Shown here: piece by piece, positions 66 to 61,240 of the stretch
How the letters are laid out: each line of letters opens with the position of its first letter
Numbering within the stretch: position 1 is the stretch's first letter
NCBI GenBank assembly: GCA_000310025.1
Contig: FN649748.1
Coordinates: forward strand, 776,152-840,151
Origin: Ectocarpus siliculosus
Taxonomy: Eukaryota > Sar > Phaeophyceae > Ectocarpales > Ectocarpaceae
DNA length: 64,000 nucleotides
Direction: 5' to 3'
Program-made: the position numbers and the translations under genes
The notes under the pieces: generated by a model
What the model was told of the DNA's origin: nothing
Seen by the model: the letters and a program-made list of their open reading frames with translations, nothing else
Databases searched by the model: none

Positions 66-2048
66 CAGAGACACAATATCATGGAGAATCCAAAAGCGTC
101 CATGCCCAGCACCACCCGCGTCGCGCCCGTCGAGGTGCCGCAAGAGTTGGCAGTTTCGTCGAAGAAGAAAAGGTCTGGGTCCAGGATGGCCAGCAGCAGG
201 GGTATCAGACCGGTACTCGATAGTAGCAGTACCTGGACCCTGAAGAGTCGAGTTGGACACGCCGGCACGGCGTCTGTTGACTTTCGAGAATAATATGCGC
301 AGAATGACACGTACGTTTGTTTACTACGCGGTGGAACGCAGAAGCACAACAAAAACGCCCAGATGCCTACATGGGAAACACGTGGGGCCGACACTGCAGC
401 TAACCAACAGCCCTTCGAACCAGAAAAAGTTGAGGCTTGCTCCTCCTCAGAACCCTACACCACAGGCGATACCTGTGTTGAACTTACGTTGCGCACCACA
501 TGTTGTCGTCGTGCTTGATCAATATCCTCCACAACCTGTACACCCGAACGACGAACGACATAAAGTGCGCCATAAGTGTCGTCCACGAAATAGAGACCTT
601 GGGTGTAAGAGAAGGCGAGGCGAGCAGGGCCGGGAGGGGCGGGAGAGGCGGGGAGAGTCAGGTACACGGAACGTTGGAAACGATGGCCGGGTAACGAACA
701 GCGGGTGTAGTAGACAGAGAAAGAGACGGGTACACCCAGAATGTAATCGGTGATGATTACACCATGGAAGCCAAACTCCGGTACGCACGCGAGACGAAGG
801 AGACACCCCCGGGCGGGCCGCACGAAAGATTCTACAGAGCAGCCGGCTCGAGACATGAGCAGAAACCAAGGCTAGGGCGACCTCAAAGCGGAGGCTGGAG
901 TTGTTGGCGTACGACCTCCCGGCAAAACCTCCAACCGCGTGGTTCCGGAATATATCGCTTGGAAGTCGTTTCATTCTACAACCTCATCGGTCTTCCGCCG
1001 ACTGTGGCATGTGCGTGTGCACGCCATAATCCCGCCGACCGCCGGCCCTTTGACTTGATTCACTGACATGGTGAGATTGTTATGCGCTGTCGCTCAACAA
1101 AGGTCGATGATTAATTATACTGTGGCCCTTGAAAACCGAGGCAAAGCGAAGGGGCCTAGAGTAACGCGATCGGTTCGTGTTTGCTGAACCCTTGCAGCAC
1201 CACCTAATACCGTATTCTGTGACCGCGCGAAGTACACGTACCTCAAAATAGCAGTTGGCGAGGAAGTCGTCTTCGCTCCTCTGAATAAGGCCGTGGCCTA
1301 CCGCCGCCGCAAATGTCCATGCGAAACCCGCGAATGTCTGCGCGTTCAAGGATAGAGGAAACACGAGTGAGGAGAAGAAAAAGGCATCGAGAGCATGTGG
1401 GGGTAGATAGATGGACATGGAGAGCACTTGGGGGGAGTCACGTGGATCGAGGAGGCGGGGGAAAAGGAAAGGACAAGAGAGACGGGCAAGGGGGTATTGA
1501 GCAGTGGAGGGCAGAGACAGTAGCTAGATATTAGGTAGAGACAGAGAGAGAGATTGAGGTGGAGGCCGAGACGAAGACTGAGACGGCGAGCGAGAGAGAA
1601 ATTGCGGAAACAGCGTACTGCGCGTCAACCAGGGCGGCACAGAGAAAGCAGGTTGGTTTTCTTCGAGAAACCGGCAAGGTGATGGCCCAACAGGACGATC
1701 AAAACTACCGGAAGCAACAAGTGTTGCCGTTTACAAAATTGAGTTCTCTATCGTCGAACAGAAACCGAAGAGTTTTTTTTACCAAAACGGTGAAGGTAAC
1801 TGCCGAAAACGTCAACGACGTCCACAACTGCGACGGCAACAACGACGACGGCAGCGTTTGGTTTGTTTCGTTCGCGTGCTCACCATGATGATGACGATAT
1901 CGACGTTCTTGGTGACGTATGGTGGCCACTTCCGCCAACGAATTAGATGGATGCACACGCCCAGGGCAAAGGCTTGGAAGGTACACACTATGCCCAGCAT
2001 GAGGTAATCGACAAAGGCCAAAGGCTCCCACGGTTCTTTGTCCGGCAT
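66..2048 (-). CDS. 7TM-RGS receptor-like gene 1, 3' part missing (left window edge)
   Basis: First four of ten exons: 2048-1884, 1337-1242, 597-488, 239-66. Exon 4 ends at a GTGAG donor; exons 5-10 lie left of base 1. The visible part codes about 181 residues: ATG, TM1 (about 13-36), TM2 across the exon 1/2 junction, TM3 in exon 3, TM4, extracellular loop 2 and the start of TM5 in exon 4. Phases (0,0,2,2) equal those of the four complete paralogs, so the reading frame is well supported. The protein starts MPDKEPWEP where the others have MSDEE(P/L)WEP. Exon 3 lacks one residue present in genes 2-5 (MSFVRVYR against MSFAVRVYR). Loop 2 keeps the Cys but has CGTST instead of the sequon CNTT. The RGS half is inferred from the paralogs, not seen here. 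A broken 3' end outside the window cannot be excluded. Confidence 0.84.
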
Positions 2049-5774: not shown

Positions 5775-8700
5775 TCATCTAGCCGCGTCCCCACCCGAAG
5801 ACGAACAAGCGACGGCGTTTCCTACGGTTGATGGCGACGAAGGAGAGAACAACCTCCCTACCAACGGCAACCGTTTGAACGAGTCCAACAGGCGGCCCCG
5901 TGGAGAGAAAGAGGAGGGGGGCGCCCTCCGCCGAATAGGGGTCGGTGAAGCGCTCGGGACCAAGACGCCCTCCGCCCGAAAGAGGCGGATCTCGCGCTGC
6001 TCCAGCTCGGACGCGTCGACGATTCGGCGGAACCCCTCCGTCTCGACGAAATCCCTCTGGAAGTTGGTCTGCACTCGTCGCCAGGTGGGTGGGAGGACAA
6101 GCCAGGACATGCAGAGGGGAATATGGGTGTTTGTTAAGCTGGGTGCCTCCGAAGCAAGCGCAAGAATCTACTCTTGATATTCGTGTGTCGGAAAGCGTAT
6201 TGTCCGGCATTGTTGGAGGCAAGAACAGATCTAAACGTAGAGGTTGAAGTGTTCAATGTGCAATTTTTGCAGAGGAGGGCGGCACTAGCGGGGTGCACGA
6301 TACAGGTGTAACGGCCGTAACAAATCTTCGCATCTGCGGGAAAGGTACGTAAAGGTGCGAGTGATCAGATACGGCTTTCAAAGCTCAACTGCTCCATACC
6401 ACCACACGACTTTCAAAATTCAGTCGCGGCATACCCTTTTAGGGTGGGACGAAACTGACCGGTGCTTGCAAGGAAAGACAGACCTCGAAGAGGTACCTCC
6501 AACCCAACCCTGTTCGGCAATGGCAGGCCTCTCGGCTGTGGTGCAATGCAGCTATGAGAGTCTGTCTGAGGGGTGTGATATCACTCGGACCTTTACCGCA
6601 TTTCGCTAAAAAAACGAAACGTTCCCCATACTTGGTACATCAACGATGTCGAGGTACGCACCAGGACTATCATTGTTTCCTCCTTGGCGCCCAAATCTGT
6701 AAGAGTAGCCTGTGGACGGCATTGGGGCGTATCATTGTAAACATGACACGGGTGAAATTACAATGGTGGTAGGAAGGGACTATAGACTCAACGGCAGTCA
6801 TGTTTGTTTCGTGTTACCTCCATAACGGCCAGAACCTCTGCTCTAGCGCGGTCGAAGATGTCGTAGGCCGTCACGTCCGTCGACAAAATCTCCTCCCGGC
6901 ACTCCCCCGAAATGTTCACCTGCCATCCCAACACCGATGCGGTAGAACAAACACGAGAACCTGACAAACAGAACGCTCGTGGAGTAGTGGGGCGTCGTGC
7001 TGCTGGTTGACAGATGACAGGCATGTGTTCAGCGTTTTCGATATAATTTCGCTGGACGCCGTGCGAGTACTATCAGGACGCTGTGTTATTTCGTGCACGT
7101 GTATAGGTAAACAGCATCGCAACAAGCCGCGGTGCTGGGACGAAAAATAAACATTGGCGTCCAACACTTGTCCACACCTGATCAGGACTCCCTTCCCTGA
7201 TGTACTGTTCCACGATTCGCATCGTCGCCGCCTGTAGAACAATCAACCGGGGGGCAGAGTGGTGACATCTACTGTGAGGTATCTGTCAAGGAAATTCGTA
7301 GATGAGTCCTTTCACTCCCTTTACGGGAAAAAAACAGCGGCAGCATTAGACGAGTGTTTCAACCTCCTCCTGGGCAATTACCAGTAGTTCCATGTTGGCG
7401 TACCATCGATACTTTATTTTTTCTTACGACGCTACTGAAAGAAAGCATGGACGGTATGCCAATATCACCATGTACCACGGCCCGTTGAGGCGCAACAACT
7501 TCCACAGAAGAAGCAAAGCGCCAAACTAAAACGAACAAGTCGGGTTTCAACTTGTGCCTACCCGCAAGCAGAGCCAGTCACGGGGGGCTAGCCCTTCCTA
7601 CGACTACTGCTTACGAAACCAGCATTCAATCGGCGAGCAACAGTGATGCCTAGATTCGATGCCATCGGCGTGCTACAGGTCAAATTACCTCACGCCAACA
7701 CACTACGTATTGCATCTGTTGGCCCACGGACGTGAGAAGCAGCGTATCACAAGCCACGAGGGTTCTATCTCTTCCAGAGCTGTGAAGCGTTTCACTTTCT
7801 AAGGACGACTCAATGTGAAGCTCCATAACAACAAATTGTGGCTCATGTTTAGCACCCCGTGATTCGAAACGTGACTGTGGTAAGACATACGAGCACCTAG
7901 CGATAGCCTCTGTGAAAACAAGGACAAACATCAAAGGCTTATCGGTACGTCAGTGGGCAGGTGGGCGGCAGAACGAGATGAAAACAGGTGTGCGGCAGAA
8001 AGAGATCACAAACTTTCAAAACCGAGCCAGTCTTCTCACAACTTCAAGGGTCGGCCACAAAAAAAGAAACCCTTGCTTTGAAGCACCCCCGCTACTGCCG
8101 CTTCTTCACCTGTCTGCCGAAATAACCCTTGATCTCCTCCCTGTCTAATGAGTCGAGGTAAAAGTCCACCAGCTCTTGGGCCACCTTTGTCTCGATGTAT
8201 CTCCGAAACTCGACCCGAAGTTGCTCTACGGACAGCTGCTCTGCCAAGCTAGCCTTAAGCTGAAATGGTGTGCGTGTGTGATTGCGAACCCAATAGCAAA
8301 AAAAACAAAATATGGTGAAACATGATACATGTTGTTGTGAAACCACGGAAATTTGTGACAGTTGGTGTCGGTAGAATGACCAACTCCGATGATGCCTCTT
8401 TAGTGGGTACTATAGGCTTTGAATTGTTTTTTGGGGGGGAGTTCGTGTGGACCCCTCCCTCCCTCCCTCCCTCCTTCCCTCCCTCCCTCCCTCCTTCCCT
8501 CCCTCCCTCAATACAGTGCTGCACGAAACCTGTGGCATTCGTTAGGCCTGGGATAAAAGAGTGAAATACTGAAGGGTTGTACATAAATCGGCCGGAGTGC
8601 CCTCAGAAATAAGCTCGACAACTGCCTTTCGGTTGATTGATGGAGTCCTACCATCCAAACCGCAAATTGCTATCAAGCCACCTTAGGAGTACGAGCACGA

Positions 8701-10066
8701 AATCTTTCGCAAGGGCAAAAGTGTGGACGTCGACGCTTATTAGTGCTCCGCTTGCTCTGCTCTTCCTGCCCGCGTGTGAAAAGGATCCCGGCTGTAGTCC
8801 GCGTGCTCAACCCAAGCGGGTCACGTCTACCGCGCCGGAAGAACGACTGCCAGTCGCGGGCGGATCATGCTCACAGGCGCAGACGCAGCAAGTCCAACCC
8901 GTTACAGACATGTCACCCGTGGGTCGCCAAAGCCGCGAACGCACAATCATTTGCTGACAAGCACATGCAACAGCAGCAACAACAATGACCCAGCAAACAA
9001 TTTCCTGAAGGCGTGCTAAACAGGCGTGAGCGACAGCCCCCGAACCTGCGCGGGCGAAGGCATCTCCGAGAATCCCTTTGTGAAGGACCACAGGTAGCCC
9101 TCGTCCCCCGTAAACTTCTTCACCACGGGCTCCCCTACGGAGCCCCATAGCAGCGTGTAAGTCGACAGCACCGGGTCTGGATCGTGTCATGGCCGGAGGA
9201 AAGGGGTAAGGGACGCAAGCGACAAAGGGGCTGTCACCATGACTTCCTCGCGGTCTTTTGACGCTCTTCATCGCTGATACATTTCTCAATGGGGACGACG
9301 GCTTCAGGTCATTGCATCGTACCCCATGATCCTGAAGCCAGGCAGCGAACCGAATGCCCACCACAACGATCTCGAACAACGGTCACCGTTAGCAGCAGAA
9401 GGACATAGCAGCACACATCAGTAGCAACACAAGCGGTTTACCACCACGGTGACATCGTGATCGCTACTGCCTTCATCGCTAACGTCTGTATTGGGCGAGG
9501 AAGATTCAATCAGGCCAGGCACCTTCAATTAACCGCCGTCCCATGTTCCTAGACCACAACCTCACGAACAGTAGTCGCCCTCGAAAGAAGCACACGGCAG
9601 CAAAAATCAACAGGAACACGAAGGCAGACCGCGACTCACACACAATGGCCACTCTTCTGACGAGCACATGTTGATTGTTGAGGATTATGGCAACCACGGC
9701 TGCGTAGCTGAACAGGAGCAGAGTCAGGCATGACAGGGTCCACTTCATGGCCTCGTACTCGTTGAACTGCTTCCGGACCCACCTCAGCTGACGGGTGCAC
9801 ACGAACCTGTTTCGGCACAGCATCGACGGAATGGGACACATGAAGCCTGTAGATGGAACTCCAAGAACAACAAACAATTAAACTCCAACTCCAACAACGA
9901 CAATGGCAACACTACGAAGACGACCATCACCACCATCACTACCACCACCACCACCAACAACAACATCCCAATAGGACACATGAGGCCTGTAGGTGGAGCT
10001 CCAAGAACAACAAAAAATAAACTCCAACTTCAACAACACAATGGCAACACTACGGAGACAACCATC

Positions 10067-10098
<32 letters not shown>

Positions 10099-12340
10099 CA
10101 ACAACAACATCCCGAACACCAACAACGACCAAGACAACCACCACCACACCACCACCACCACCGACAACAACAACAACACGCCCTCAAATCTGAAGCACAC
10201 CCTCCTCCGCCTTACTTGACATCACCGCAAAGCCACCCTTTGCGCCTCACCAAAGATAGCAGATGAGGTAGAACCCCAGGGCGTTCATCGCCAGGACCAC
10301 GTTCCTCGAATCCGTCGTTGTGTTGCAAGAATTGACAGTCTCGTCGAAGAAATGGAGATCTGGGACAAGCACGGCCGCCAGCAGAGGGCCCAGGCTGATA
10401 CTCGACATCACCATTACCTGGTACCTGACGGGTGGGGGGTGGATAGAGCGTTGCGCATCATGCACCATATTTGGACATATCTTGGACCGGACCATGGGCC
10501 GCTTCCGTCGCCGTAATCCGGTCCATGAAATTGTCCACGGCGGCCCATGGTGTTCCGAAGAGGCTCATCGGACGCTCCAAGTCGTGCCACTAACCGGACC
10601 GTGGGACGTATTGGAACCCCAAAGTGGACTGGTGTCATGGCACGGGCCATGACCCGGTTCAATGTCCGGCTCGTGACATATTCCAAGAAGTACCTCAAAC
10701 GGGACGTGTGCCGAACCGCGGAACGGACCATGAATCGTTCCCGGACCCCGGGGCATGGGGACGATACGGCACTTCATGGGCGCCGAAAAGGCGATACACA
10801 CACAAGGGCGAACGCCGAAAACGACCACAACCCTCTGGGGGGCAACTCACTTTGCGGGCCACATGCTGTCGTCGTGCTTGATCAAAATCCTCCACATCCG
10901 GTAAACCCGAACGGCGAACGACATGATGTGCACTGCTAGCGTCGACCACGACAAGGTTGTCTGCAATGCAAGCGACGGCGTTACGGATGGGAGGGGAGGG
11001 TAAGATGAAGACACGGACAGGAAGGGTGACATGACGATTCACTCCCGATTGTTTGTGTAAATCTCCTGCAGGGCCATCGATCTCGACTTTTAACGCTAAC
11101 ATGTCACGCCGTGATCGGCAACTAAGTGGAAAGAACAATAAGAAGGGCGTATCCATAGTACGGTGTCTCCTCCCTGGTGTTCAGCACACTCAGCATCCCA
11201 ATACCACCCGTGCGGAGCCCCAAGGGGGGGGGGGCAGAAACTCACATCAATGTAGCAGATGGCCAGGAAGTCCCCTTCGTTCCGAGGGATTAGGCCGCTC
11301 TGCAGAGCAGACGCAAACGTCCACGCGAAACCGGCGAGCGTCTACACGTAGATACAAGGGAAGAGGGTGGATACAGCGATACAGTGAGCGCCGGGGGGGG
11401 GCAGATATATCGAAGGAGAAAGAGGGAGAAATGCGTACACAAACGAGAGAGAGAGGTGGGGGGGGGAAGGGAGAGAGACACACGGCGGAGAGTGAGACAA
11501 AGAGAAAGGGGTCGAGAGAGGAGAAGCACTGACCACCCTTTTCACTGTCACGCTTCAAGCAAGCACAGACCTCAACAGCTCCTACGTCAAGACGAACCAG
11601 CAAGGGAACACCCTAGCGGCAGCGGCACTGCTTGCGGTCGTACTTCACAACAGTGAGCCCCCCCCACCAGCATGATGAGATCCGCGCAAGTCGTAGCGCA
11701 CGGCTGTGTAGATGATCAGAGAACACCAAAACAACCGACAATGTATGACGAGCGGTTAGGCGACTGCATCCAATGTCTTCATAGGACCACTTGAGCGAGG
11801 AGCTCCAGTCACATGTTCGCAAGGCAGACATCGCCGCCGCCGCCGTACCACCAGCAGCTGCAGCAGCAGCAGCAACAACACCACCACCACCACCACCACC
11901 ACCACCATCACCACCGCCAACACCAACACCAACACCAACACCAACATATCAAAATCTTCTTCAAAACCTTCAAAAATGTTTTGAAATCAACACCACCACC
12001 AACACCAACACCACCAACAACAACACCAACAACAACAACACCAACAACCAACACCACCACCAAAAATAACACCACCAACAGCACCAGCACCAACACCAAC
12101 ACCAACAACAACAACAACAACCACGACAACAACAACAACAATGAAACGCGTGCGTTGCATCATGTTCCGACTCACCATGATGATGACGATGTCGACGTTC
12201 TTGGTGACGTATGGTGGCCACTTCCGCCAACGAATTAGATGGATGCACACGCCCAGGGCGAAGGCTTGGAACGTGCCCACCATCCCCAGCATGAGGTAAT
12301 CGACAAAGGCCAAAGGCTCCCACGGTTCTTCGTCCGACAT
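5775..12340 (-). CDS. 7TM-RGS receptor-like gene 2 (ten exons, 480 aa)
   Basis: Exons: 12340-12176, 11341-11246, 10960-10851, 10424-10251, 9806-9640, 9176-9046, 8259-8110, 7231-7178, 6919-6818, 6068-5775 (TGA stop). All introns are GT-AG and the sum is exactly 481 codons. Residues 1-281 hold seven hydrophobic segments (about 13-36, 49-70, 84-110, 125-144, 165-187, 203-224, 233-250). Cys84 at the start of TM3 and Cys157 in loop 2 could form the GPCR-type disulfide; a CNTT glycosylation sequon follows. Residues 282 to about 405 are an RGS domain (AQELVDFYLDS, REGSPDQVNIS, YDIFDRARAEVL, FVETEGFRRI). Expected role from the family: a plasma-membrane protein whose cytosolic RGS tail accelerates GTP hydrolysis on a G-alpha subunit. 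The tail is basic and Ser/Pro/Arg-rich. Introns 1 and 4 contain CAC/CAA repeats. Ligand and direct receptor activity are unknown. Confidence 0.88.
8453..8509. repeat. CCCT/CCTT microsatellite in intron 6 of gene 2
   Basis: Almost uninterrupted TCCC repeats with two TTCCC variants. The paralogous place in gene 3 (about 19231-19268) has a G run followed by CT repeats, so this spot expands repeatedly. Confidence 0.9.
9831..10198. repeat. Duplicated segment of about 140 bp with CAC/CAA repeats in intron 4 of gene 2
   Basis: 9831-9970 and 9971-10112 are tandem copies (GGACACATGA, GCCTGTAG, CTCCAAGAACAACAAA, ATGGCAACACTACG), each ending in CAC/AAC trinucleotides that continue to 10198. A single similar copy lies at 20437-20490 in gene 3. 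Confidence 0.85.
11853..12141. repeat. CAG/CAC/CAA microsatellite in intron 1 of gene 2
   Basis: Long run of ACC, AAC and CAACAC triplets ending just before the exon 1 donor. Open frames through it encode homopolymers and are not genes. Confidence 0.9.
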
Positions 12341-16460: not shown

Positions 16461-19400
16461 TCATGCAGCCCCAAACTCCTCCTCACGATGACCCACACTA
16501 TTTCTTCTAGCCGCGACCTCGCCACTTCCTGCACCCGGAGTAGACGACCTAGAGACAGCGTGTGCCACGGCTGAGGGCGACGAAAAAGAAAACAATCTCC
16601 CCACCAAGGGTAAGCGTCTGCACGAGTCCAGCAGGCGGCCCCGTGGAGAGAAAATGGAGGGGGGCGCCGCCAGCCGAACCGGGGTCGTTGACGCGCTCGG
16701 GACCAAGACGCCCTCCGCCCGCAGGAGGCGCATCTGTCGCTGCTCCAGCTCGGACGCGTCGACGATTCGGCGGAACCCCTCCGTCTCGATGAAATCCCTC
16801 TGGAAGTTGGTCTACGCTCGCCGCCATGGTGGTTGGAGGGGGCAAGAGAGAGGGGACGGGGCGAGGGAAACGGGTGTTCTTGTTTCTCAGCTGGGTGCTT
16901 TTGAAGGAAGCGTAAGAATCACTCTGATAAGCGCGTGTCGAAACTATTTCTTCGACAGTGAGGTGGCAGTTTTGAGTTTTGGATTCGTGTCGAGGAGGGT
17001 GCTCCTATAGGCATCCATGATGCCGGTAAAACCTTTGCGGCTGGCAAAAGTACGGTAAAAGAGTGCGAGTGATCGTCCGCCACCCAGCCCGACTTTCAAA
17101 GATCGATTGCTCCACAGCCAAGAGGACACGAAACCTACACGCGCGAAGAAAACTCTCCTCTACACCCTTTCAACAAATGCAAACTTGTTGCCGCCGATTT
17201 GCAGGCCTCTTGCTTCTTGTGTAATCGACCCAAAACGTCGCGGGAGATCGTTCGCACGCTTGCGGTACATTGCCTTGTTCTGGGAAACCCCAGACTTTCG
17301 CCAGACTTGGTAAATCGACAGCAACGATCGGCACCACTTGTCTTTCCTTACACCAAAATCAGCAAGATAAGCCTACGGGCCGCATTGGCGCGCACATCAC
17401 GGTGTTCACGTGATACGGGTGAGTTTTGGATTGCAAAACTGGCAAGTGGAAGAGGCTTGGAGGCTCAACGACGGTCACTTTTCTCCCGTGTTACCTCCAT
17501 AACGGCCAGAACCTCTGCTCTAGCGCGGTCGAAGATGTCGTAGGCCGTCACGTCCGTCGACAAAATCTCCTCCCGGCACTCCCCCGAAATGTTTACCTGC
17601 CAACCCGACACCAACGCGGCAGAATAGACCAAACGGAGGGAATGAGAACTACACGTTTTGTGCAATAGTGTGGCGTCTTGCTGCTGCAGGTGTGCCTGCA
17701 GGTAATTGTTCAGTATTCACGATCACTTCGCTGGACTTGCTGTTACCACCAGGACGGCGGGTGTGTGTCACAGCATAGGTAAGTCACAGGGGATACAATA
17801 CCCCAGTGACAACATTTTGGTGCCGTGTCTGAGATACTCTAGTGATCGCACGCTGTGGTAAGCTGGTTTTCCGTAGCGGACGTCATCATTTACAATGAAT
17901 TGGCTGCGGCGCTGGGAAAAAGACAGTGACATCGGACGCTTGTCCGCACCTGATCAGGACTCCCTTCCCTGATGTACTGTTCCACAATGCGCATCGTCGC
18001 CGCCTGTAGAACAATCCGACGGGGGGGGGGGGGAGCGTCCCCATCTATGGTGAGCTATCTGTAAGGGCATATCTTGGGTAGGTCGTTTCACTCCGTCCGA
18101 GGAACAAGACTCAGAGGCCATGGGTTTGGGAGACGCGTGTTTCTTTCCCCCGTGAGGCTCCTCCGCGAGTCATCGCCACTGCCATCACAAACCGTTCAAC
18201 CTTCTCTGTGCCGTCGGAGAGACACTCTCTCCAGAACCTTGAAAGGTACCTCCTATTCCCTTGTTGGCTTACCACTGGCCGTCCACTTTTTCCGTGACAA
18301 CGGACTACGCGTTCAGAACGTGTGAAAAGCCGGACGCCCTTGTGGATCAACGTGCAATGAAGAAGCAGCACTGCCGAGCTATGTATGTCGAAGAAGGCAA
18401 CTTACGAGCAGAGTCAGGGACGGGGATTGACTAGTCCTCCTGAGGCTAAGGTTACTGCTTTCACAGCCGACCCACAATTGGTTCCTTTCGTATCGTTTAG
18501 ATTCAACGTCATCATCGGCGTGCTTTAGGTCTAACGTAACCATGCCGACGTTACACCCGCTGAACCAACCATTGAGAACCTACACATTTACATGCAGGTC
18601 CACAGAACGATGGAAGTGTTTCGTGTTCTCATGGCTTCGTGATGCATTGCTACGGCACACGCCGAAACTCCACAAACACCTCATATGTAGCTCACGTTCA
18701 CCGTCCAATCTTTCGGAATTTCGATGTGGAGTAGGACGTAGCGACTACGGTAGTCTCTGAAAAAAAAAAAACGTCAAGGGTCCTGGGTAGCGTGTTGGTG
18801 GGTGAGTGACTCGATCAACGGCACATGGAAGTCGCGTGCAATACACAACTTGGGGACAAGCCTTCGTTAAGCATCCCTGCTACTGCCGCTTCTTCACCTG
18901 TCTGCCGAAATAGCCCTTGATCTCCTCCCTGTCTAGCGAGTCGAGGTAAAAGTCCACCAGCTCTTGGGCCACCATAGTCTCGACGTACTTCCGAAACTCG
19001 ACGCGAAGTTGCTGCACGGACAGTTGCTCCGCCAAGCTAGCCTTGAGCTGTAAAGGTGCATGTGTGATAGTTAGTTCGAGACACGGGGCGCCAAACAAAG
19101 TAAGGTAGATTCACTAGCATGCCACGAGTTGATGAAAACGCCGGTTGTTTGCCACCGGTAGTGGCAGTATAAGTGAACAACTCCGATGAGGCCTGCATTG
19201 TGCGTACAATACAAGAGGGCTTGTACTTGGGGGGGGGGGGGGGTGTTCGTGAGAATCTCTCTCTCTCTCTTTGTCCTCCCCTCTGCGTCATCCGTGAAAG
19301 TCGGGAGGGAAATACAGAATTAATATCGAATAGACGGGGAGTGAAACGAAGAAAATAAACTTGACAATCATTATTGAGCTGCTGGACGGAGGTCTACCAT

Positions 19401-42100: not shown

Positions 42101-43069
42101 TAGGCGTTGCCCAACCAGCGCCAGAGACGAAGGTACACAGGAGAGACAAACAACAACACGGCAGTGGTCAAGAGGGGAACAGGGCGAGAAATGGCCGTCC
42201 CCCTCACGGGACCACCCTGAAACACTCCGTGTGAAGGGAATAAGGTGACCACGACTTATGGGCTCATGACCCCCCCCTCCCCCCCAAGAACATTCGTTGG
42301 GACTCCCGAGAGAGGCGCGTGCGCACCTCTAGGGAGCACTCGGCAAGGAGGTCGCCCTTGCTCCTGTGGACAAAGCCAACGTCCAGAGCATTCGCAAACG
42401 TCCATGCGAAACCCGCGAAAGTCTGCACGCGCATCGGAGAGGGGACACGAAAATATTGTATCGATGAGGCAGCCAGGGTCGGCCGTGGGGGGGGGGCAGG
42501 GAAGATCGAAGCGGGCACATTGAAAATATGGTAGAGGGACGGTGTAGGCGACAGAAGGATGTAGAGAGAGTCCGCTTGCGGGCGGCAATTTCGATTTAGC
42601 GGAGCATCATCGAGAGAGGTAAATCTCGGCGACAGAAACAACACCATGAGTACATCCTCGCACAACTCCTGTCCACTTGCCATTACCACGACGAGCAACG
42701 CCAGGTGAAACTGTCGTCGGTTTCTGCATTGCTGTGTGGGGGTGAACAATAACAAACCACCCAACGTTGGATAATGAGTAGCGGCTTCGGCCTCGTCAAT
42801 CCAAGCGGCTTGCTTGGAACACTGACTGAACGATTTTGAGCACCAGCAACCGCAGAAAGAACGACAGTACAAACAGCGATTGGCCGTTTCAAGTACCCAC
42901 CCACCATGATGATGACGATGTCCACGTTCTTGGTGACGTACGGTGGCCAATTCCGCCAGAGAAAGAGGTGGACGCAAACGCCCAGGGCGAGAGCCTGAAA
43001 GGTCCCCACGATTCCCAGCATGAGGTAGTCCACCATGGTCAAGGGCTCCCAAAGCTCTTCGTCCGACAT
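36138..43069 (-). CDS. 7TM-RGS receptor-like gene 4 (ten exons, 430 aa)
   Basis: Exons: 43069-42905, 42422-42327, 41926-41817, 41036-40863, 40031-39862, 39177-39047, 38302-38153, 37608-37555, 36859-36758, 36278-36138 (TGA stop). Sum 431 codons; exon 5 is 170 nt instead of 167, adding one residue after TM6 (DNKHHVLARR). The seven hydrophobic segments, the Cys pair and the CNTT sequon are kept. The RGS domain starts at residue 283 (LKASLAEQL) and includes ELVNFYLDS, VNISEACREEI and YDIFDRARAEVL. The C-terminus is short (about 46 residues in exon 10, ending PPGPCV), unlike genes 2 and 3. Exon 4 uses a less usual AAG acceptor, with a codon GGT where the paralogs have TAC or TAT. A LINE 3'-end fragment abuts the exon 4 donor. 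The ATG is preceded by GTAAGGTAAG. Sequence is closest to gene 5 (LLVPGAYVFDE, GFFGRQ, IVARYIR). Confidence 0.87.
40103..40161. repeat. CAC and AAGAAC repeats in intron 4 of gene 4
   Basis: Perfect CAC triplets followed by AAGAAC hexamers. Another CAA/CAG-rich stretch lies in intron 5 at 39715-39840. Confidence 0.9.
40768..40854 (+). mobile_element. LINE/SINE 3'-end fragment with C-rich tail in intron 4 of gene 4
   Basis: Same 3' module as 30537-30603 (TGCTCCGTCCC hairpin, TTGGTCTAGCGACTACGGCA, TATGAGTA, then a C/T run). It ends about eight bases from the donor of exon 4 of gene 4 and is antisense to that gene. The upstream part (40600-40767) shows no recognisable coding sequence. Confidence 0.6.
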
Positions 43070-49950: not shown

Positions 49951-52900
49951 TCAGGGCGCTGGCAGGGTATCCGCCGGCAATAAGCCCCCGGCCTGCAGCA
50001 GACGATTCTCTCGGTCCTCCAGGTAGGACGCGACGGCGATTCGCCGGAAACCCTCCGTCTCCACGAAACCCGCCTTGAAGTCACCCTGTTTTCGTTGGTG
50101 TTCATTGTGATTGGAGTGGCAAGCGAGGCGCGGAGAGAAGCGAATGACAGATATCGTTGAAAACTGAGACGAATGTTCGTGTGTGGAGTTCATTGGACGC
50201 GGCCGGCGAGCACCAAATGAACAGGAGGGTGGTTTAGCACACCGCTGTTCAGCCGTTCTGAGTGGCGAAGAAAGCTGATCAAGCGACAACAGCGGTTCGC
50301 CTTTGATCGAACAGACTGATTGGGTAGCACATGTCTCGAACCAATCGTTGATTCGTATCTCCGGAGGCCAGACATTCTGAAACGTCATCAATGATATCAA
50401 AGCAGCCCCTACAGCCAGGTTCCACTCTGACAGCTCTACATTATTTGTGCCCCCCTTGTGTGCTGATGGCCACGGCGGGTTGCAAAACAAACAAGAACGT
50501 GTTAGCGTTGCAGCCTGAAATCAAGCAAGGGAATGACAGGTTTTCCCACCAAGCGCCTTTCTCTCGACTTACCTCCATTAAGGCCAGAACCTCTGCTCTA
50601 GCGCGGTCGAAGATGTCGTAGGCTGTCACGTCTGTCGACAAAATATCCTCCCGGCACGCCCCCGATATGTTCACCTGCCAGCGCAACGCATTGCGGTCCA
50701 ACGTAAAACATATATCACGCCTAGAATCGGGTGCGTATTTCGCTGCCTGCGTAACGTTCGCCAGGGGGGTATTGTTCAAATTACTGTCCTCCCAGGTTCC
50801 AGGTCCAACAAAAGAACAAATACAGATCACAAAGGGTTCCGTGCAACTATGGCATCGCCGACGATTTTCTGCCCCGTGATCACCTCTGGCCAACACATTT
50901 GACACCGCCGGTGCTCCCCACACAGACCGCTACTTGCCATGGAAACAGCAGGAGGCGTCAAGCATTTCGCGTTCAACACTTGCACATCTCGGATACGCCC
51001 TGGGTTCGCTCTGAACCTGGCAAATGCCGTGTCTTGACGAGTGAACGAGCTTTTAATTCACGCCTTACTCCCAGCTCCGAGCACCAAACTTCACACGCGG
51101 CAACGCACCGTTAGAGGAACTGACCAACTCGCTCGAGACTTGGCCAGAGTGAATTTCGTAGGCCTTGGTAGCATTGAGGGCGTGGAAAGGCTTTGGTTCG
51201 CCAATGCGAGGGCCGATGCAACGAATGAAGCCTTCTATTCGCCTATCTCTCGTTACCACGCTCAATGAACCTATCTCCAACTTTGTTTTGGAGGTGCCCA
51301 GAAAACCACCCCCCAATACTGGCTTGCAGAGCTCTGCCCACCGTCAAAACAGACCCCGTCCAAAACATGCCAAGCTGTAGAAACAAACACAAGTATATTT
51401 CGATGGTTCCCCAAAGTTTGGATCGCCACTAAAGCCGGAGCTGTTGAGGAACGACGGCCTGTCCCCCGTCGGGCGCGGACTCCTCGTTATCGGTGCTTTG
51501 TGGCTACCGCCGTAATAGTTGGAGAGATGGCACCGGGTGCGTTTTTTTTTTTTAATGTTTTTTCCTCAGGTTTTTTATAGCACCCCGGTGCCATCTTTCC
51601 GACCGGTGTCATCTCTCCGACCCGGTGCGGATATGCAATGAATTCAGTTCGTTTAATATTTTCAAGGCACCCAGGTGCGATTTCTCCGACCGGTGCGATC
51701 CCCGATGAAATACACAGGTGTTGTACGCACGCACCCCGGTGCCATCTATCTGAACTAGTATTGATATCAGCATGGAACCACGTGTAGGCACCGTTGCTGG
51801 TTGGAAGCAAATCGAGAACGGCAACGTAGGCTGGTACGTAACCGCTTTCCATGCAGCAGCGAGTCTTGTGTTTCATGCCAGTTCGGCTCTGTCTTGACAA
51901 CAAACAATGTCGTTTCCATGTGAGGTGCCGGTACGTACGGTATCAGTTATCTCCCGCTTTCGTTTCGGGCTTCCTCTACGGATACCAGGACGTACGCAGC
52001 AGTACATAGTGGTAGTTTTTTCGTGTTGTCCAAGGTGGGGTAGGGTGCGGCTTGCGCGTTGTGTGTTTCGTTGAGTGTACGGTTGGCAACCTCCGTACAA
52101 ATTGAACAACGAAAACAACTGGCATCCCGCGTGAAACCGCCACCATGCATACGTACATACAGGATTGGCGCTCCGCTGACACCGTCCCCACATGTAAAAG
52201 GTACGCACCTGTACCTCATTCCGGCAGCTGAAAAGGAGCTCAATCTTAATCTTGGATTTGGGAGAGATACTCTCCGACCCTGGTGCGTAAATCGAATTAA
52301 ATCATGCCGTTCTGGTATTTTTCTGCGCACCCCGCCGGTGCCATCTCCCCGACCAGTGCCATCTCTCCGACTCACGATTCTAGTGGGGACAAGCAACTTG
52401 GGCATGTCACCCCTGGGCATTCCTGGTTGGGGAATGAACTTTGTGCAGAGCACAGCAAGTTACGCCCCGCAGATTACGAAGCGTTTCTAGGGGAGCGTGT
52501 CCGTCTTAATGATACATACGTGAAATCTAGTATGAAAGGGAGGCCATGTGGTTTCTATTGTTGTAGCCCCGGGGTAAAAAAAAAGGGGTCTACCACGCTC
52601 TATCTTATGATCGTCCAAGTTTTTACCGCGTTCTACCTTGTGAGCGTCCAAGTATAGGAGGGAAACTTGCACTTTCAGCAGGTTCGATACGTTCGGTCGC
52701 TACTGGTGCAGTTATACGAAGTACTATTGTAATCTCGGGGAAGTTTCAGCAGACGAATTTCAGCAGCCATAGTCGGATCGGCTACAGGACACACCTGTTC
52801 GGGGGCCCCCTCTCTGATATATCTCGCCACAATGCGCATCGTTACCGCCTGAGAACACAACCGACAGCCGAATGAGGGGGCAGTGTGGGTTGGGTTGGGG

Positions 52901-55900
52901 GCAAAAAATCGCTGTTGGGACTGTCCTTGTAAAACTAAAGTCGTCGGAAACATACGGCCGTCTCAAGGAGTGACATCTCTTCCACCCAAGATTTTCGAGT
53001 GAAAATGTCACGTCGATCATGTGATCTTCGTCTCCTCGCCCCGAGAGTCAGGTACCGACCTGCTCCAAAACACCCACAGAGTCCAGCCTCTCGAATGAAA
53101 CAGACTGCCTCGTCTCTCAGCAAAACCCTGCCTCAAGTTCACCACATCACTTGCCGCTACATGTTCATGCCAATGCTGCAGGATTTTGTCCCCGTGAGAC
53201 ATGGAGGTCTCGACTCGGTTGCTACACATTGAGCTTTCCGTGTTGTTGGGAAGATGTATCGAAGATCGCGTTCTTCTTGCATAAGGCACACGTCTGTCAC
53301 GTGGCCTACTTTGGATGGTGTTTGCTGTTCCTGAGACAATCGGCACATGCGTTCCGCAAGGAAGAAAGCACTATCTGTATTCTTTAATTCATACCTGTCT
53401 GCCGAAGAACCCGTGGATCTCCTCCCTGTCTAGCGATTCGAGGTAAAAGTCCACCAGCTCCCGGGCCACCTTGGTCTGCATATACCCCCGAAACTCGATC
53501 CGCAGCTGCTCCACAGAAAGCTGCTCCGCCAAGCTAGCCTTGAGCTAAAGGGGTTTCAGAAGGGGAGACACAGGGGGTCGGTGTGTATCCGCAACCGATA
53601 CACATCACAAACAAAACGGTGCCTCGAGGCACCGCAGGTCCTGTTTGGCACCTCGTGTTCTTTCTCGGTCAACAACAACATCTCTCACTGTGGCATACGA
53701 TAAATGTCTCAGCCAGATAACTTAGGACACGGGGGAAGTTTCGTTGTTTTCTAACGGAGGTCATCATTGCTGAAGTCCTTCCCTCCCCATCCCACCCCCG
53801 AACCCCGAACACGCGTTTGGAGTGCGGTATTCTATCGTGGCGGACATGTGCTCTGCCGCAGCAACGGTTCGGTGAAGGCAGGGATACGAATCCCAACAAA
53901 GATCATCACCAGCGACGAAAGCAAAAAATCCCCAACAAATGTCGGGGGAGGTGTGATCCATAAAAAAAGGTCGTCTCCACCCCCCACCCCCACCCCCGTT
54001 TCTTACGAGTACGCCTCTTGTTTTTCCGCGAGAAAACACTGTAGAGGCAACCAGAGTCCGACCGGCTGGTGGCGAGCTGATTTCGTCACTTCTTCAGAAT
54101 CTGACGGTGCATACTTCAGATCCGTCACATCACCGAACGTTCCTTATACCAAGTTCGAAATCTGTGCTTTGAGCTCGCCGCCACGGTTGGGTGGGAGGCA
54201 ATTTGAACCCGGATTACTCGCCACCAAAACCACACATCTCACGACGACGCCAACACGAACAGAGGGAAAACATCCTCGGCAGACGTCGGGGAGTTTTTGA
54301 CTCTTGTTCAATGGTCGCATCGCTCCTGAAATGGCCATCTCCGCACGGTGCGTTTTCATAACACACCCTCATGCTCTCCTCCGCTACACGCCCCCCCACC
54401 CTCCTGTCGGCGGATCCCGCGGACGACAAGAACGCTGGCCTTTATCTATGTGCCTCTTTAAACGCTGGGATCTTTTTCACTTTCTTACCGTGTGTCTGAC
54501 GACGGCGCATAGAATGAAAGCATAGAATGAAAGCTGGCACGTTGTACATACATCAAATCGTTCGGTTGGTAAATCAGGCCACCACACCAGAACAGCATTG
54601 TTCCCAGGAATTTCTTTCGGGCTAGAGAAAAAAAATGTATGTTGTTTCAAGAAAATACAATAGAGGGAATCCACGTGTTGTTGAAATGACATGAAAGATT
54701 GACATTTCAGGAAGTTTTGACGTGACGAGGTTACGCCGCGTTTTTGGAGGCACACTCTGACGGCGAAATGTTTGTGAAAAAGCGTCAAAACGTAACCGAC
54801 GCGAAGAGATTGACACTTCAAATATCGCCAGACTGTGGCTCACACACGCTTGCTCTGTGCTCTGTTACCATCAGCAAATCACGAAAGGAGTGCGGTCAGC
54901 AGCGAACACATTGGCCATGCCTACTGATTGCTCCTAGCGGTCCTGCACACACACGTCTCGGCAGCTCTCACGGCGGCCCAGTGGCCGGACTCGCGTGTTC
55001 GGCGCGCTCGTTCGGTAGATGAGCCATCGCGATTGCGCACGGGCTTTCGGCAGCAAAAAGGGGCATAGGCAGTAGTCGGGGGAGTCCCGCCCTCGAAGGG
55101 AGCACATATAGAGGATTAAGGGAGGGTACACGGACTTGGCCAGTCAGTAGGTGCATTTCGCCCGCCCCCTCACGGGGTTCGGTGCTCTGCTGCCGCAGTG
55201 ACATCGGTACATAGCAGTACAGCGAGCAGCTGCCTCACTCATCAGCAACGGCAGTTTGACGCCTGGGAAGTCGCCGCGGCAAAAGAGGGAAGGTCGGCGG
55301 GATGAGGCGGAGGGGTACACCTAGTCTCCTGGGAGCCTGGGAGTGTGAGTCTTCGCTTCAGCATGTCGACCCTGGGTGGCATCCCGAAACATGACGGGGT
55401 CGTGAACATGACCGGCGTTAACGCGTCAACTCTACACCACCATTTTGTATTTTCCCTCCCACGTGCAACGGGCACACGCGGTGCGAATTTTTTCCCGTCA
55501 AAACCCTCAACCGTTACTTTATGTTGGCGTCAATCCTCAAAGGTCAAAATTCCGCGTCAATCCATAGTGGATACCCTATAATATCGAGGAATGGTTACGA
55601 CAAGAACAACCTGCGCCGGAGAAGGTAGCTCCGAGAAGCCCTTGGTGAACGACCACAGGTATTCCTCGTCTCCCTCCCACTTCTTCACCAAAGGCTCGCC
55701 GATGGAGCCCCAAAGGAGGGTATGCGTCGTTAGCACGGGGTCTGTATAGTGATGGGATGTTGCGGGGGGAGGAAACGGAAACGGGGGGGCGTTGATTTTG
55801 CGTTTCAGGGCTGAAATTGGCGAGCCTGCACCCATTCAAGTATCGGAGGCCTGAGTTCACCTCCTTCGGATGTCAAACTCCCCCAATAGAGCCCGAATCT

Positions 55901-58900
55901 GCATAGCCCCGAACCAAGACGATGTAGACCGAAAATATGTGTCCGGTGGATGATCTACTCGCACCCCCCTCTGCACCAAGCGTATCTCTCGCTTATCTTG
56001 CTCAAAAAGGGGCAACATGTTCTGTTCTCACTCGCTCCGCCAATCGCTCCTGTCCGAGGTACAGGGACACCAGATGAAGGTCTCCACCGGCGATCTCTCC
56101 CGATGACTTCCCTCTCCCTACCGCGAATGCGAACCGCCAAACACAACGAGAATCAACAACCCTCATAAAGTTACCGTAGCTCTCCTCGATGTACGTAGCA
56201 AAGAGGATTTCGTCCTGTTCGGTAAAATGATACGATTCGACTGAGGGTGACCCCACCATCTCGCAAAATACGATAAAGCCAGGTGAACAAACTTAGAAGA
56301 AATTGTCCCACCCGCGTGTCCAACAACAACGGCGATGGCAACAGCAACGACAACAGGTACGCAGCCAAACACAGAACAAGGGACTCGACTCACACACGAT
56401 GGCCAGTCTCCTGGCGAGAACCTGGTGGCTGTTGTCCAGGGCAACGACCACCACAAGCGCGTAGCTGACCGAGATCAGAGTCACGCACAGCAGGGTGCGC
56501 GTCATCTCCTTGTACTCATTGAACTGCTTGCGGACCCACCTCAGCTGACGGACGCACACGAACCTGAAAAGAGACACCGGAGGGGACGTAGGATCCCGTG
56601 AGTTTGGCGGAGGAACACGACGGCTAGGGCGCCGCGCCTCCGACATCACAATCGGTAACAGCAGCAGCGACGACGACGACGACGACGACGACGAAGACAA
56701 CGACGACATCGATAAGAAACCTACCGCGCTGACGTCAACATCAACCCCCCTTAGGCTCACCAAAGAAAGCAGATGATGCAGCAGCCGAAGGCGTTCATCG
56801 CCAAAACCACGGTCCTCGAAGTGCTCGTGGTGTTGCACAAGTTGACAGCCTCGTCGAAGACGTAGGCACCGGGAACAAGCAAGGTAACTAGCAGCGGAAC
56901 CAGGCAGGGGCTCGAAAGCAACATGATCTGATACCTGATTGGTGAGGCGTTGCCAGTACGGGTAGGGGAGGGCGGCATCCGGTCAGCGGCGTCTCGCCGC
57001 ACATGTTCGACAAAGGGTGAAATTGAATTCTGCGGCGCCCCTGCCCCGTGCAGGATTTGCTCCACATTCCAATTTGGATTCTTGCTCTTGGCTTTGGGGG
57101 CCTCCAGCTCCGGCCTGTGGTCTCATTCTGCCAGACGGCGGCCTACCCGGTTCAAATTTTGTAGTCCCGATTGTCAGCGGTGGTTCCCACGGTATGCGGC
57201 AAGCTACTGCTGTACGCATGATTGTGCCGATCTCTCCAACACAATTACTCCACGATGGAGGTGCTCACAGCGAACATAGCCCGTCGCTTTCGGCACAGTC
57301 GATGTTTTCGCGATCGAGACGCGGGCCTCCCGAACTCCGTCCACGGCATTCCCGACCCTTTTCGGGAAGCGAGATGCAAACGGGCTCTACAGACATGAGA
57401 GGCTAACACTCCTGCCCCCTAAACGTTCGCAGCAATCGTGAATCGTGAGAAAGCCCCACCATTACCCTCGACCAGGCGCGTTTGTAACCTCATCCGCAAC
57501 ACGAGACCCTCCCAGGCGAAGATCTCGGCACACAAACGGCCACCGAAGCTCACTTTGCGGACCACATGTTGTCGTCGTGCTTGACCAAAATCTTCCACAT
57601 TTGGTATATCCGGATGGCAAACGCCGACAAGTGTGCGGACAGCGCCGACCACGCCAGGAATCTCTGGGGCCGCAGACAAAGCGGGCGAAAGGGCCAGAGG
57701 GGCGGTTGCAGACAGAAACGAGAAACAAGGGCGAACAAACGAGAACCAGAGTAACGCTCCATGAGGGACCGGCAGACCAAACCATCGCCTTGTGAAACCA
57801 CAATCGGGACACAAGGTCGACGCAAGTGCACCACCCGTTTGGGATAGTCCAGTTAGCATGTTGACAACCAATTCACCCCACCCCCCACCCCTCCAATGTA
57901 GAGAAGTCTTCAAGCAGTACCTGGGTGAGGGGTCTGAAGAGAGTTGGGAAAAGTACAGGGCCAAGAGGAAACAGGTGAAGGGACTAGTGAAAAAGAAGAA
58001 AAAGAGCATTTGGGACGAAGTAGTGCAGAAGGCCAACGGAGGCCTGGAGGGGAACGTCAAGCAGATGTGGGAGGGGATTAGTGGGATGGTAAAAAAGACC
58101 GCGCAAGGGGGGGATACAGGGGTAGCAACATTGCGAGGTGTGAACGGTGGACTAGTCAGCAGTGGGAAGGGAAAAAGGGAAGTTCTAGCAGGACACTACA
58201 AGAGACTTGGAGTGCCTTCGGAGAATGAAGATTTTGACCAAGTGTTTAAGAAGGAGGTGGACGCATGGGCCCAGAAAGAAGAAGAGACATCGAAGGCAGA
58301 CGTTGGGAACGTAGAACTAGAAAAGGAGTTCACTGAGGACGAGGTTGAGGCGTGTGTGAACAAGCTGCAGTGCCACAAAGCAGCAGGGGCGGATGGGATA
58401 GTAAACGAGTTCATGAAGTTTGGGGGGAAGGGGATGATCCAGCTGATGGTACTGCTGTACAACTGGGTGTGGAAAAACGAGTATGCGCCAAGTAGATGGA
58501 GGGAAGGAGTGGTTGTGAACCTGTTTAAGAAAGGAGACAAGACTGACCCAGGAAACTACAGGGGTATCACACTGTTGAACACAGTAGGAAAAGTGTTTTG
58601 TAAGCTGCTGAACGATAGGATAGTGGGAGTATTGGAGAAGAAACGTAGCATTAGTGAGGGCCAGGCAGGTTTCCGACAGAAGAGGGGGTGCGTAGACCAC
58701 GCATTCACGGTAGGGAGAATCATCCAAGGTAGAAAGAGGGCGGGAAAGCGGACGTACTGCTTCTTCCTGGACGTGAAAAAGGCATACGATACCGTATGGA
58801 GAAATGGGCTGTGGAAACAATTGTCCAAGTACGGGATCAAGGGGAAAATGTGGAGGGTACTGAAGAAGATGACAGAGTGTACGAAAAGCGCGGTCATGCT

Positions 58901-61240
58901 AGACGGAGAACTGTCTAAATTCTTCGACATTGAGCAAGGGGTCCCACAAGGTTGCACGCTGTCCCCAACATTGTTCCAGGTGTTCATCAACGATCTGTTG
59001 GAAGTCGTAGAAGCAGTCCGGAAGGGAGTAAAAGTAGGGGACACGGAAACTTCGGTGTCAGGAATGCTGTTTGCGGATGACTTAGTTGGTATGTCGGACA
59101 CCCCTGAGGGACTGCAACTGCAAATTGACGCGGCGAAGAAGTTTACTGATAAGTGGAGATTGTCTGCCAACGTTGCGAAGAGTGCCGTCATGGTATGCAA
59201 CGAGGGCAGGGAGGAACCAGTAGAACATAGATGGAAGTGGGGGATCGAGGAGATTGCAGTAGTGGACCAGTACACATACCTCGGAGTAGAGATCGCAAAA
59301 GATTGCTCGTGGAATGCACACATGTCCAAGGTAGCGGAAAAGGGCAAAGCACGAGCAGGGAATCTGCACCCAATACTCGCAAACCGGCACCTTGATACAC
59401 GCATCAAACTGACGGTTTTGAAGAGCGTAATCGTACCGCCGCTAGAGTACGCCGGAGAAGTATGGGAAGGAAATAAGAAGGTAGTGAAAGGACTCGAGGC
59501 GGCGCAGATGAAAGCAGCGAAAATCATCCTAGGATGCTCCAAGCGCACAAGTAATGCAGCAGTCAGGGCAGAATTGGGGATCCAATCCCTACGGTCGGGA
59601 AGAGACGTAAGGAAGCTGACATGGCAGTATGGCATGTGCGGGATGGGAGAGGAGAGGTTGCCGAGAATAGTATGGGAGGCGAAGTGGGCAAACAAAAAGA
59701 GGGGTAGACAACCCACGGAATGGGTCAAGGTTGTAGAGGACGTATGGAAGGGATTGGACATCGACGAAGATGAAACGCTGGAAACGGAGGGTCTACAGGG
59801 GTTCAAGAAGAAGATATCTGTTGCTTGTGCCGACAGAGAAGAACAGAATCTAAGGAAAGAATCCAAGGATAAGGAGGGTCTAGAAGTGTACGGAATGTTG
59901 AAGAAGGAATAGGGTTCAAGGATTACCTACATGGACCAATGGATGCAGGGACAAAGCTTAAGGTCAAATTCAGGACCGGGGACATAGGCCTTCGCGAACG
60001 TCGACGAAGACATAGGACGGTAGACGACGAAGACGACAAGTTCAAATGCGATTGCGGCTTCGAATGCGAAGACAGTGTTCATGTAGTCGCGGAATGTCCG
60101 TGGTACGAAAAGGAGAGGGAAGTGTACATGACTGAGCTGGGAAGAATACAAGGGACGTACAGGGAGATGTTTGAGGCATGGAATAGAGAGGAGAGGACGG
60201 TAGCGGTACTGGGGAGTAGAAAGTGGTTTGAAAAGGCGGGAAGTGACATCGGTAGGATAGACAAACTAGGCAAGACATTTTTGAGCCACCTTTGGCAAAG
60301 TAGGAAGGAACGATTGGCCATCGGTGATCGGTCCTGTGGGAACAATGCTCCGTCCTCTCGAGGACGCGTGGTCAATGGTCTAACCGCTAAGGCATGCAAA
60401 GCATAAGAGTACGCCCCCCCCCCACCCCTCCAATACTATCTGCTGTGACGCTCCGACAGAGAGGCGCGCGCGCACCTCGAGGGAGCAGTTGGCAAGAATG
60501 TCCCCCTCACTCCTCCGGATTAGACCGTTCTCTAAAGCGCCTGCAAATGTCCACGCGAACCCAGCGAACGTCTGGAGGTATGCAGCCGGCGGGATCGAGG
60601 GGGTGAGAAGCACGAAAAGCGCAAGAGAGGGGGACAGCCGGGGGGTGGTCGAAGGAGGCAGAGGGAAACGCGTAAAGAGACCGAGAAGTCAACGGGAGAG
60701 GGATACAAGAAGATAATGAGGTAGAGAGAGAGAGAGAGACAGAGAGATGGTTTGCAACTGGTGGTAGCTCTTGAACAAGGGCAACTCACAGGGAAAGGTC
60801 CTGGTGAGACGGGCGAGCAAGCGCGATAGCACACCCTTGCAACAGCAACTTGCCCTCACCACGAGCACCAGGTGCAGATATCGACGTTCGCTGTATCCCT
60901 GCGTGGAAGCCGGCCACCTCGGAGCACTCAACCTTGCAGGATGAGCGACGACTTCAACCAGGCCGATCCGAGAGGCACGCACGGCACGCTTACTGAAAGT
61001 GGCTGAGCGGCGGCAGCCGCAGAAACAACAGCACCAACAGCAATACCCCCCTCATTAACTACATACCCCACTCACCATGATGATGACGATGTCGACGTTT
61101 TTGGTGACGTATGGTGGCCACTTCCGCCAACGAAATAGATGGATGCACACGCCCAGGGCAAACGCTTGGAAGGTGCCCACAATTCCAAGCATGAGGTAAT
61201 CCGCCATGGTCAAAGGCTCCCACGGCTCTTCATCCGACAT
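49951..61240 (-). CDS. 7TM-RGS receptor-like gene 5 (ten exons, 428 aa)
   Basis: Exons: 61240-61076, 60571-60476, 57663-57554, 56934-56761, 56563-56394, 55741-55611, 53544-53395, 52848-52795, 50674-50573, 50085-49951 (TGA stop). Sum 429 codons, all GT-AG, same phases as the other copies. It spans 11.3 kb because intron 2 holds a 2.5-kb LINE and intron 8 a cluster of repeated 18-bp motifs. Protein: seven hydrophobic segments, loop-2 Cys in NLCNTT, RGS domain from residue 283 (AVTMRIVARYIREGAPEQ, VNISGACREDI, DIFDRARAEVL), short tail ending LPADTLPAP. An in-frame ATG two codons upstream (61246) also exists; 61240 was chosen because the paralogs start at MSDEE. The LINE is antisense and inside an intron, so the coding sequence is intact, but its effect on splicing is unknown. 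Confidence 0.87.
51521..52372. repeat. Cluster of an 18-bp motif in intron 8 of gene 5
   Basis: The consensus GGTGCCATCTCTCCGACC appears at about 51587, 51604, 51673, 51738, 52338 and 52355 with variations, and inverted at 51521-51540. The inverted copy and the copy at 51580-51600 make a stem of about 20 bp with a T-rich loop. No coding sequence is linked to it. Confidence 0.7.
56665..56708. repeat. GAC triplet repeat in intron 4 of gene 5
   Basis: About a dozen CGA/GAC triplets. Located between exons 4 and 5 like the triplet repeats of genes 2 and 4. Confidence 0.9.
57881..57897. repeat. Target-site duplication, left copy
   Basis: Seventeen bases identical to 60418-60434 on the other side of the LINE. 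The site is C-rich; the corresponding intron of gene 4 has an unoccupied C tract at about 42271-42286. Confidence 0.9.
57898..60417 (+). mobile_element. LINE (non-LTR retrotransposon), 5'-truncated, in intron 2 of gene 5
   Basis: An open frame from 57898 to 59912 encodes a reverse transcriptase: KAAGADGIVNEFMKFGG, GNYRGITLLNTVGK, AGFRQKRGC, the motif A region FFLDVKKAYDTVW, motif B QGVPQGCTLSPTLF and the FADD catalytic box at about 59070-59081. A second frame (59939-60406, continuous with codons from about 59903) carries the C-terminal Cys/His segment CDCGFECEDSVHVVAECPWY. The two differ by a one-base shift near 59900. No endonuclease domain is present, so the copy is 5'-truncated. The flanks are a 17-bp direct repeat, CCCCCCACCCCTCCAAT, at 57881-57897 and 60418-60434, a target-site duplication. 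The 3' end is a CGTCCT/AGGACG hairpin (60351-60366), a short conserved stretch and a C run. The first codons upstream of 57898 that appear open are intron sequence, not element. Confidence 0.92.
60418..60434. repeat. Target-site duplication, right copy
   Basis: Identical to 57881-57897. It merges with the oligo-C tail of the LINE, so the exact element/TSD border inside the C run may shift by a few bases. It ends about 40 bp from the exon 2 donor of gene 5. Confidence 0.9.

Follow-up and report, generated by a model that had tools for sequence, protein, structure and literature searches.

The stretch of Ectocarpus siliculosus DNA analysed here (the window: 64,000 nucleotides of this brown alga, GenBank assembly GCA_000310025.1, contig FN649748.1, or C23:776152-840151 in a genome of 189 Mb and 492 contigs) carries part of a tandem array of paralogous genes, each encoding seven hydrophobic segments followed by an RGS domain in one chain, a layout referred to below as 7TM-RGS (7TM, seven-transmembrane). 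The array is real. Our preferred reading, to which we give a probability of roughly 60%, is a tandem expansion of integral membrane RGS proteins that would work as ligand-regulated, membrane-bound GTPase-accelerating receptors similar to AtRGS1; a 7TM-RGS device, a probable sensor, has likely been multiplied and diversified in E. siliculosus.

Self-comparison of the window showed repeated blocks of up to about 450 bases; they form five sets, four of them fuller and one partial. Exons were defined from the minus-strand reading of these blocks in one copy (c1), and tblastn with the c1 exon proteins then located them in the other copies; tblastn matches that fell a few residues short at either end were lengthened without gaps. 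The c1 gene has ten exons with intron phases 0,0,2,2,1,0,0,0,0. At the positions predicted from c1, the six other complete copies (c0, c2, c3, c4, c6 and c7) have a GT donor and an AG acceptor in all 54 of their introns (63 of 63 including c1), which bears out the shared ten-exon, same-phase layout proposed in the first-pass annotation of the window. The joined exons form an ATG-to-stop open frame in all seven copies, with 529, 480, 499, 430, 428, 429 and 463 amino acids (aa) in c0, c1, c2, c3, c4, c6 and c7, respectively, and c2 shares 87% identity with c1. Because the splice positions set on c1 hold in 54 of 54 introns and the Pfam RGS domain is found in seven of seven members, chance is excluded.

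The Pfam RGS (PF00615) check on the joined exons had been set in advance as a refutation test, and it found the domain in 7 of 7 members (best E-value 1.9e-11); in c1 it covers residues 290-398 (E=5e-11, 43.5 bits as compared to a cut-off of 23.9). All 16 PDB sequences matched by the c1 RGS part at E<=0.01 are RGS proteins, with RGS16 the best (9.7e-6). Residues E310 and N351 are invariant in the seven array RGS domains. RGS positions were assigned by comparison with RGS16 and RGS18 and are given in RGS4 numbering, and we take E310 and N351 to be the equivalents of RGS4 E87 and N128 (E320 and its Asn in AtRGS1). RGS4 E87 and N128 and their AtRGS1 counterparts matter for RGS function. The AtRGS1 query used throughout agrees with PMC5575782 in its length and four residues (here and below, papers are cited by such identifiers), and three more of its residues agree with known residue numbers. 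A genome-wide, exon-blind PF00615 search did not have the array among its 3 matches; the array RGS is split over four exons. The three matches, all above the cut-off and away from the array, lie at C15:1092552-1092812, C14:1831781-1832131 and C10:1490009-1490197.

Transmembrane segments (TM1-TM7) were read from hydropathy only. Family-averaged hydropathy (listing threshold 0.9) shows seven peaks, all N-terminal to the RGS domain in the same chain and none over it, in line with the seven-helix part fused to an RGS domain that had been described at first pass, two of the peaks being weak. In single copies, seven peaks are seen in seven of eight copies at a threshold of 1.1 (six in c7), and 5-7 at 1.25. 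TM1 starts near residue 14-18, leaving an N-terminus of about 14 residues in the modelled protein, to which an unrecognised upstream exon could possibly add. All eight copies have cysteines where TM3 begins and ahead of TM5.

Read in the whole genome, the C23 array contains eight copies (c0-c7) over about 125 kb, including seven that are complete and open and one (c5) that is interrupted by an assembly gap. Inside the window, the minus-strand copies c1-c4 are complete and c0 is present with exons 1-4 only. The first-pass annotation had counted five intact genes between positions 66 and 61240; only four are complete there, and the fifth, c0, is intact but has exons 5-10 (C23:774888-771629) within 10 kb to the left of the window, position 66 being the end of its exon 4. 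To the right of the window, exon 1 of c5, c6 and c7 is found at C23:850556, C23:861760 and C23:896822, respectively, and c6 and c7 are complete. In c5, exons 1-6 were read before the gap (the locus holds 7190 N); loss of the RGS domain from this copy was considered and rejected, the RGS region being the gap itself. A second cluster of three copies on C8 was read over exons 1-5 (d1), 1-9 (d2) and 4-10 (d3), in loci with 3766, 1902 and 4979 N. The d2 copy, whose exon 4 contains an in-frame stop (C8:1672602-1672772) and whose exon 10 was not found in its locus, is possibly decaying. The local expansion is therefore larger than the first reading had claimed, with eight copies on C23 and three on C8, i.e., at least eleven close copies.

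Three divergent relatives were found on C15, C489 and C9, giving at least 14 family members in the genome (91 matches); this total is a lower bound, because the genome search scores only the best candidates. Intron positions differ from those of the array in the C15 7TM-RGS relative (exon 7 is split) and the C489 one (exons 8 and 9 are in one frame). The ten-exon layout is therefore a hallmark of the expanded copies, and introns changed after the split from the array genes. A scan of viral contigs with two short first-exon patterns only returned 86 pattern-matching stretches and no relatives.

Both parts of the protein are under constraint. The ratio of nonsynonymous to synonymous substitution rates (dN/dS) has a median of 0.30 in the 7TM part (range 0.24-0.42, 28 pairs) and 0.20 in the RGS domain (0.11-0.30, 21 pairs), and is looser in the linker (0.07-0.64; 27-32 codons) and the tail (0.24-0.91; one pair not computable). 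Amino-acid divergence is higher in the 7TM part than in the RGS domain in 21 of 21 pairs, with 97 of 241 invariant sites in the whole 7TM part versus 71 of 114 in the RGS domain. Within the 7TM part, 21 of 86 sites are invariant in TM3-TM6 versus 36 of 66 in TM1, TM2 and TM7 (Fisher P=0.0002; the grouping was made post hoc). These patterns fit a protein whose helix bundle varies while its signalling part is kept constant, and are compatible with the earlier suggestion that a sensing module has diversified. The predicted helix-8 G-alpha contact segment of the RGS domain varies as well (TNFQRDF in c1, AEFKAEF in c3 and GDFKAGF in c4).

Candidate partners are encoded in the same genome. A G-alpha profile search gave 22 matches, and the switch II motif DVGGQR, with the catalytic Gln, is found at five or more G-alpha loci (C1, C3, C7, C19 and C479). 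This count leaves out an N-terminal piece on C11, and a piece on C2 was not counted as it is ARF-like (DIGGQ). In Ectocarpus gametes, six G-alpha paralogs, all of them expressed, have been reported (PMC3879662).

Under the preferred reading, we infer the topology, the ligand sensing, the GTPase-accelerating (GAP) activity and the pairing with G-alpha as follows. Each protein would begin with a short N-terminus on the outer side, cross the membrane in seven helices and continue through a short linker into a cytoplasmic RGS domain. G-alpha would load GTP spontaneously or through another receptor, and the membrane-held, GTPase-accelerating RGS domain beside it would reset GTP-bound G-alpha. A ligand in the TM3-TM6 bundle would alter the access of the RGS domain to G-alpha, so that ligand binding would lengthen (or shorten) the time that G-alpha spends bound to GTP, in the manner of the AtRGS1 model (PMC3718340). 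Divergence among the copies affects both the helix bundle and the predicted site of RGS contact with G-alpha, and would allow them to respond to different cues and to be matched with different G-alphas (at least five are available). Going further, a brown-algal chemosensory repertoire could have evolved from membrane RGS proteins, with cues possibly including gamete pheromones, control of G-protein shut-off rather than activation, and a separate G-alpha for each copy; we consider this unlikely. For Ectocarpus, three male-specific GPCRs (G-protein-coupled receptors) and three partial GPCRs with elevated levels in females have been reported, and the pheromone receptor has been suggested as a possible GPCR (PMC3879662); in addition, the gene Ec-20_003070 is annotated as 'similar to G-protein coupled receptors' (PMC6027523).

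Several results weigh against an array of AtRGS1-like, diversified sensors. TM3 and TM7 are weak (averaged hydropathy 1.18 and 1.26), and at a hydropathy threshold of 1.6 just 3-5 segments per copy are left. In the RGS domain, the positions of RGS4 N88, D130, D163 and R167, which are G-alpha contacts in RGS4, are occupied by other residues (L in place of N88, S in place of D130, N or another residue at D163, and D, E or G at R167) and S164 is also substituted; GAP activity is therefore not assured. The RGS domains of c1, c3, c4 and d3 share 22-27% identity with AtRGS1 and 26-28% with RGS16, so AtRGS1 is no closer. Hydropathy-preserving shuffles of the AtRGS1 7TM part scored as high as the part itself or higher against the array proteins in 316 of 495 and 322 of 497 scored cases by hmmsearch, and in 38 of 60 and 39 of 60 by hhalign; the sensing half may therefore differ in origin, i.e., the 7TM part of the array may have arisen separately from that of AtRGS1. 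The full-length hhalign alignment with AtRGS1 spans 329 columns at 23% identity, and the 7TM part alone gave no signal. The difference between outer and inner loops (14 of 39 versus 26 of 50 invariant sites) is not significant (P=0.14). The dN/dS values of the 7TM part and the RGS domain are well below 1, and pairwise comparison thus gives no sign of positive, diversifying selection at this resolution; nor is ligand diversification proven, because relaxed structural constraint would leave the same pattern. In the family tree, one of nine inner branches is strongly supported (c5+c6) and c3+c4 fairly so, and the tree does not recover the C23 array as a single clade (38% of bootstrap trees show it). 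As the long C15 row is also unreliable, no duplication history is claimed.

The same evidence can be read in other ways. The 7TM part is GPCR-like, perhaps class C-like, and it is possible, if doubtful, that these are bifunctional receptors, in which a class C-type 7TM part would act as an exchange factor upon ligand binding and the fused RGS domain would be a fast off-switch giving sharp, local signals. The 7TM part of c4 matches Pfam 7tm_3 over positions 11-237 of the 251-position profile (E=5.8e-6), while none of ten hydropathy-preserving shuffles of it does up to E=1. This match (26.6 bits) is under the curated cut-off of 33.5, however, and c4 is the only one of nine chains to give it: none was found in c1 at full length or in the 7TM parts of c0, c2, c3, c5, c6, c7 and d1, and the genome-wide 7tm_3 search does not list the array. 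PDB sequences found with the family 7TM profile up to E=10 are four in number and all GPCRs (two mGluR7 and two CX3CR1), with mGluR7 aligned over TM3-TM6 including the 'FNE' stretch of the third intracellular loop (ICL3); yet the best of them (mGluR7, E=0.26) is not significant, and c4 7TM alone gave no PDB match up to E=10 by phmmer. Conservation is high in ICL1 and ICL3, where 21 of 31 sites are invariant, though not in ICL2 (5 of 19). A large N-terminal ligand-binding domain is typical of class C GPCRs, although some members lack it; the array proteins have no Venus flytrap domain ahead of TM1. GPR158, a class C receptor that also lacks this domain, ends signalling through RGS7 (PMC8611064). 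Elsewhere in the genome, 7tm_3 matches lie at C17:1175605-1175802 and C27:2818226-2818360, one of them above the cut-off. The Dicty_CAR family had no match either in the genome or in the controls, so that this result is uninformative.

A more improbable alternative is that RGS catalysis has been lost and that the proteins are scaffolds, serving only to hold G-alpha or some different partner at the membrane. It would account for the substitutions at the five RGS4 positions listed above and for the variation in helix 8; against it, the RGS domain is the more constrained part by both invariant sites and median dN/dS, the E87 and N128 equivalents are invariant, and the AtRGS1 sequence likewise lacks the RGS4 residues at N88, D130, D163 and R167, while AtRGS1 is GAP-active (PMC3718340). 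That the array consists of decaying duplicates of no functional note is hardly credible. The d2 copy on C8 and c5, with no readable RGS part, could be cited for it, though the latter is owing to the assembly gap; seven full open frames with canonical introns and dN/dS of 0.11-0.42 over the 7TM part and the RGS domain in every measured pair speak otherwise, and on open frames and constraint we rejected a pseudogene array.

In window coordinates, the array genes seen there lie on the minus strand. Exons 1-4 of c0 (2048-1884, 1337-1242, 597-488 and 239-66) encode TM1-TM4. The c1 gene (5775..12340) has its 7TM part encoded by exons 12340-12176, 11341-11246, 10960-10851, 10424-10251, 9806-9640 and 9176-9046, and its RGS domain and tail by 8259-8110, 7231-7178, 6919-6818 and 6068-5775. 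The exons of c2 (16461..22754) are 22754-22590, 22321-22226, 21429-21320, 20795-20622, 20409-20243, 19986-19856, 19047-18898, 18003-17950, 17596-17495 and 16811-16461; those of c3 (36138..43069) are 43069-42905, 42422-42327, 41926-41817, 41036-40863, 40031-39862, 39177-39047, 38302-38153, 37608-37555, 36859-36758 and 36278-36138; and those of c4 (49951..61240) are 61240-61076, 60571-60476, 57663-57554, 56934-56761, 56563-56394, 55741-55611, 53544-53395, 52848-52795, 50674-50573 and 50085-49951.

Other features in the window include a 715-aa open frame (57765-59912, plus strand) with a reverse transcriptase domain (PF00078, E=3.4e-34), which lies inside intron 2 of c4 in the opposite orientation and is probably a retroelement insertion that left the c4 exons intact. 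Between c2 and c3, coding stretches for haem peroxidase (PF00141) at 29555-30199, 31914-32660 and 32632-33477 (plus strand) apparently represent two tandem plus-strand genes in or next to a stretch richer in G+C. A short repeat (14244-14433 and 25728-25931; 67 bases, 85% identical), about 2-3 kb upstream of exon 1 in c1 and c2, may be an untranslated exon or an upstream element common to both genes. No Rfam match was found in the window at the gathering threshold. The EsV-1-7 repeat family, which is expanded in brown algae, is abundant in the genome (at least 150 matches; 150 of 880 candidates were scored), which marks its lineage as very likely brown-algal.

Among known systems, AtRGS1, the best-studied 7TM-RGS regulator of plants, has been linked to glucose (PMC3718340). 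It shares with the array proteins the N-terminal seven helices, the C-terminal RGS domain (459 aa as compared to 428-529 aa here), the key Glu and Asn positions and, in most copies, a similar helix-8 pattern; unlike AtRGS1, the Ectocarpus genes form a multi-copy tandem array. The first-pass annotation held that 7TM-RGS fusions are mostly single genes, which may be too strong: Brassica species have two RGS genes each (PMC5794992), and the fungal GprK-like (class 6) receptors are a class likewise defined by its RGS domain and, among fungi, restricted to Ascomycota and 'EDF' (PMC12842992), a likeness at the level of the class definition. GPR158 and RGS7 offer another case of a class C 7TM part working with an RGS protein (PMC8611064), and the array is likened to class C by the weak, near-full-length c4 match to 7tm_3 and the ICL3 FNE stretch; it differs in that 7TM and RGS parts share one chain, an outer domain for ligand binding is lacking and eight of nine chains have no 7tm_3 match. 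The oomycete GPCR-bigrams are likewise stramenopile fusions of a 7TM part to a signalling domain, with the difference that their partners are catalytic (e.g. adenylate cyclase), RGS fusions being set apart as the plant type (PMC6033456). In the open-access literature searched, to the extent of its available excerpts, we found no description of a brown-alga 7TM-RGS family; the subscription literature may note one.

At least eleven close copies beside five or more G-alpha genes in a multicellular stramenopile would show that RGS-controlled signalling has expanded in another complex multicellular lineage, and the array supplies concrete candidates for brown-algal receptors.

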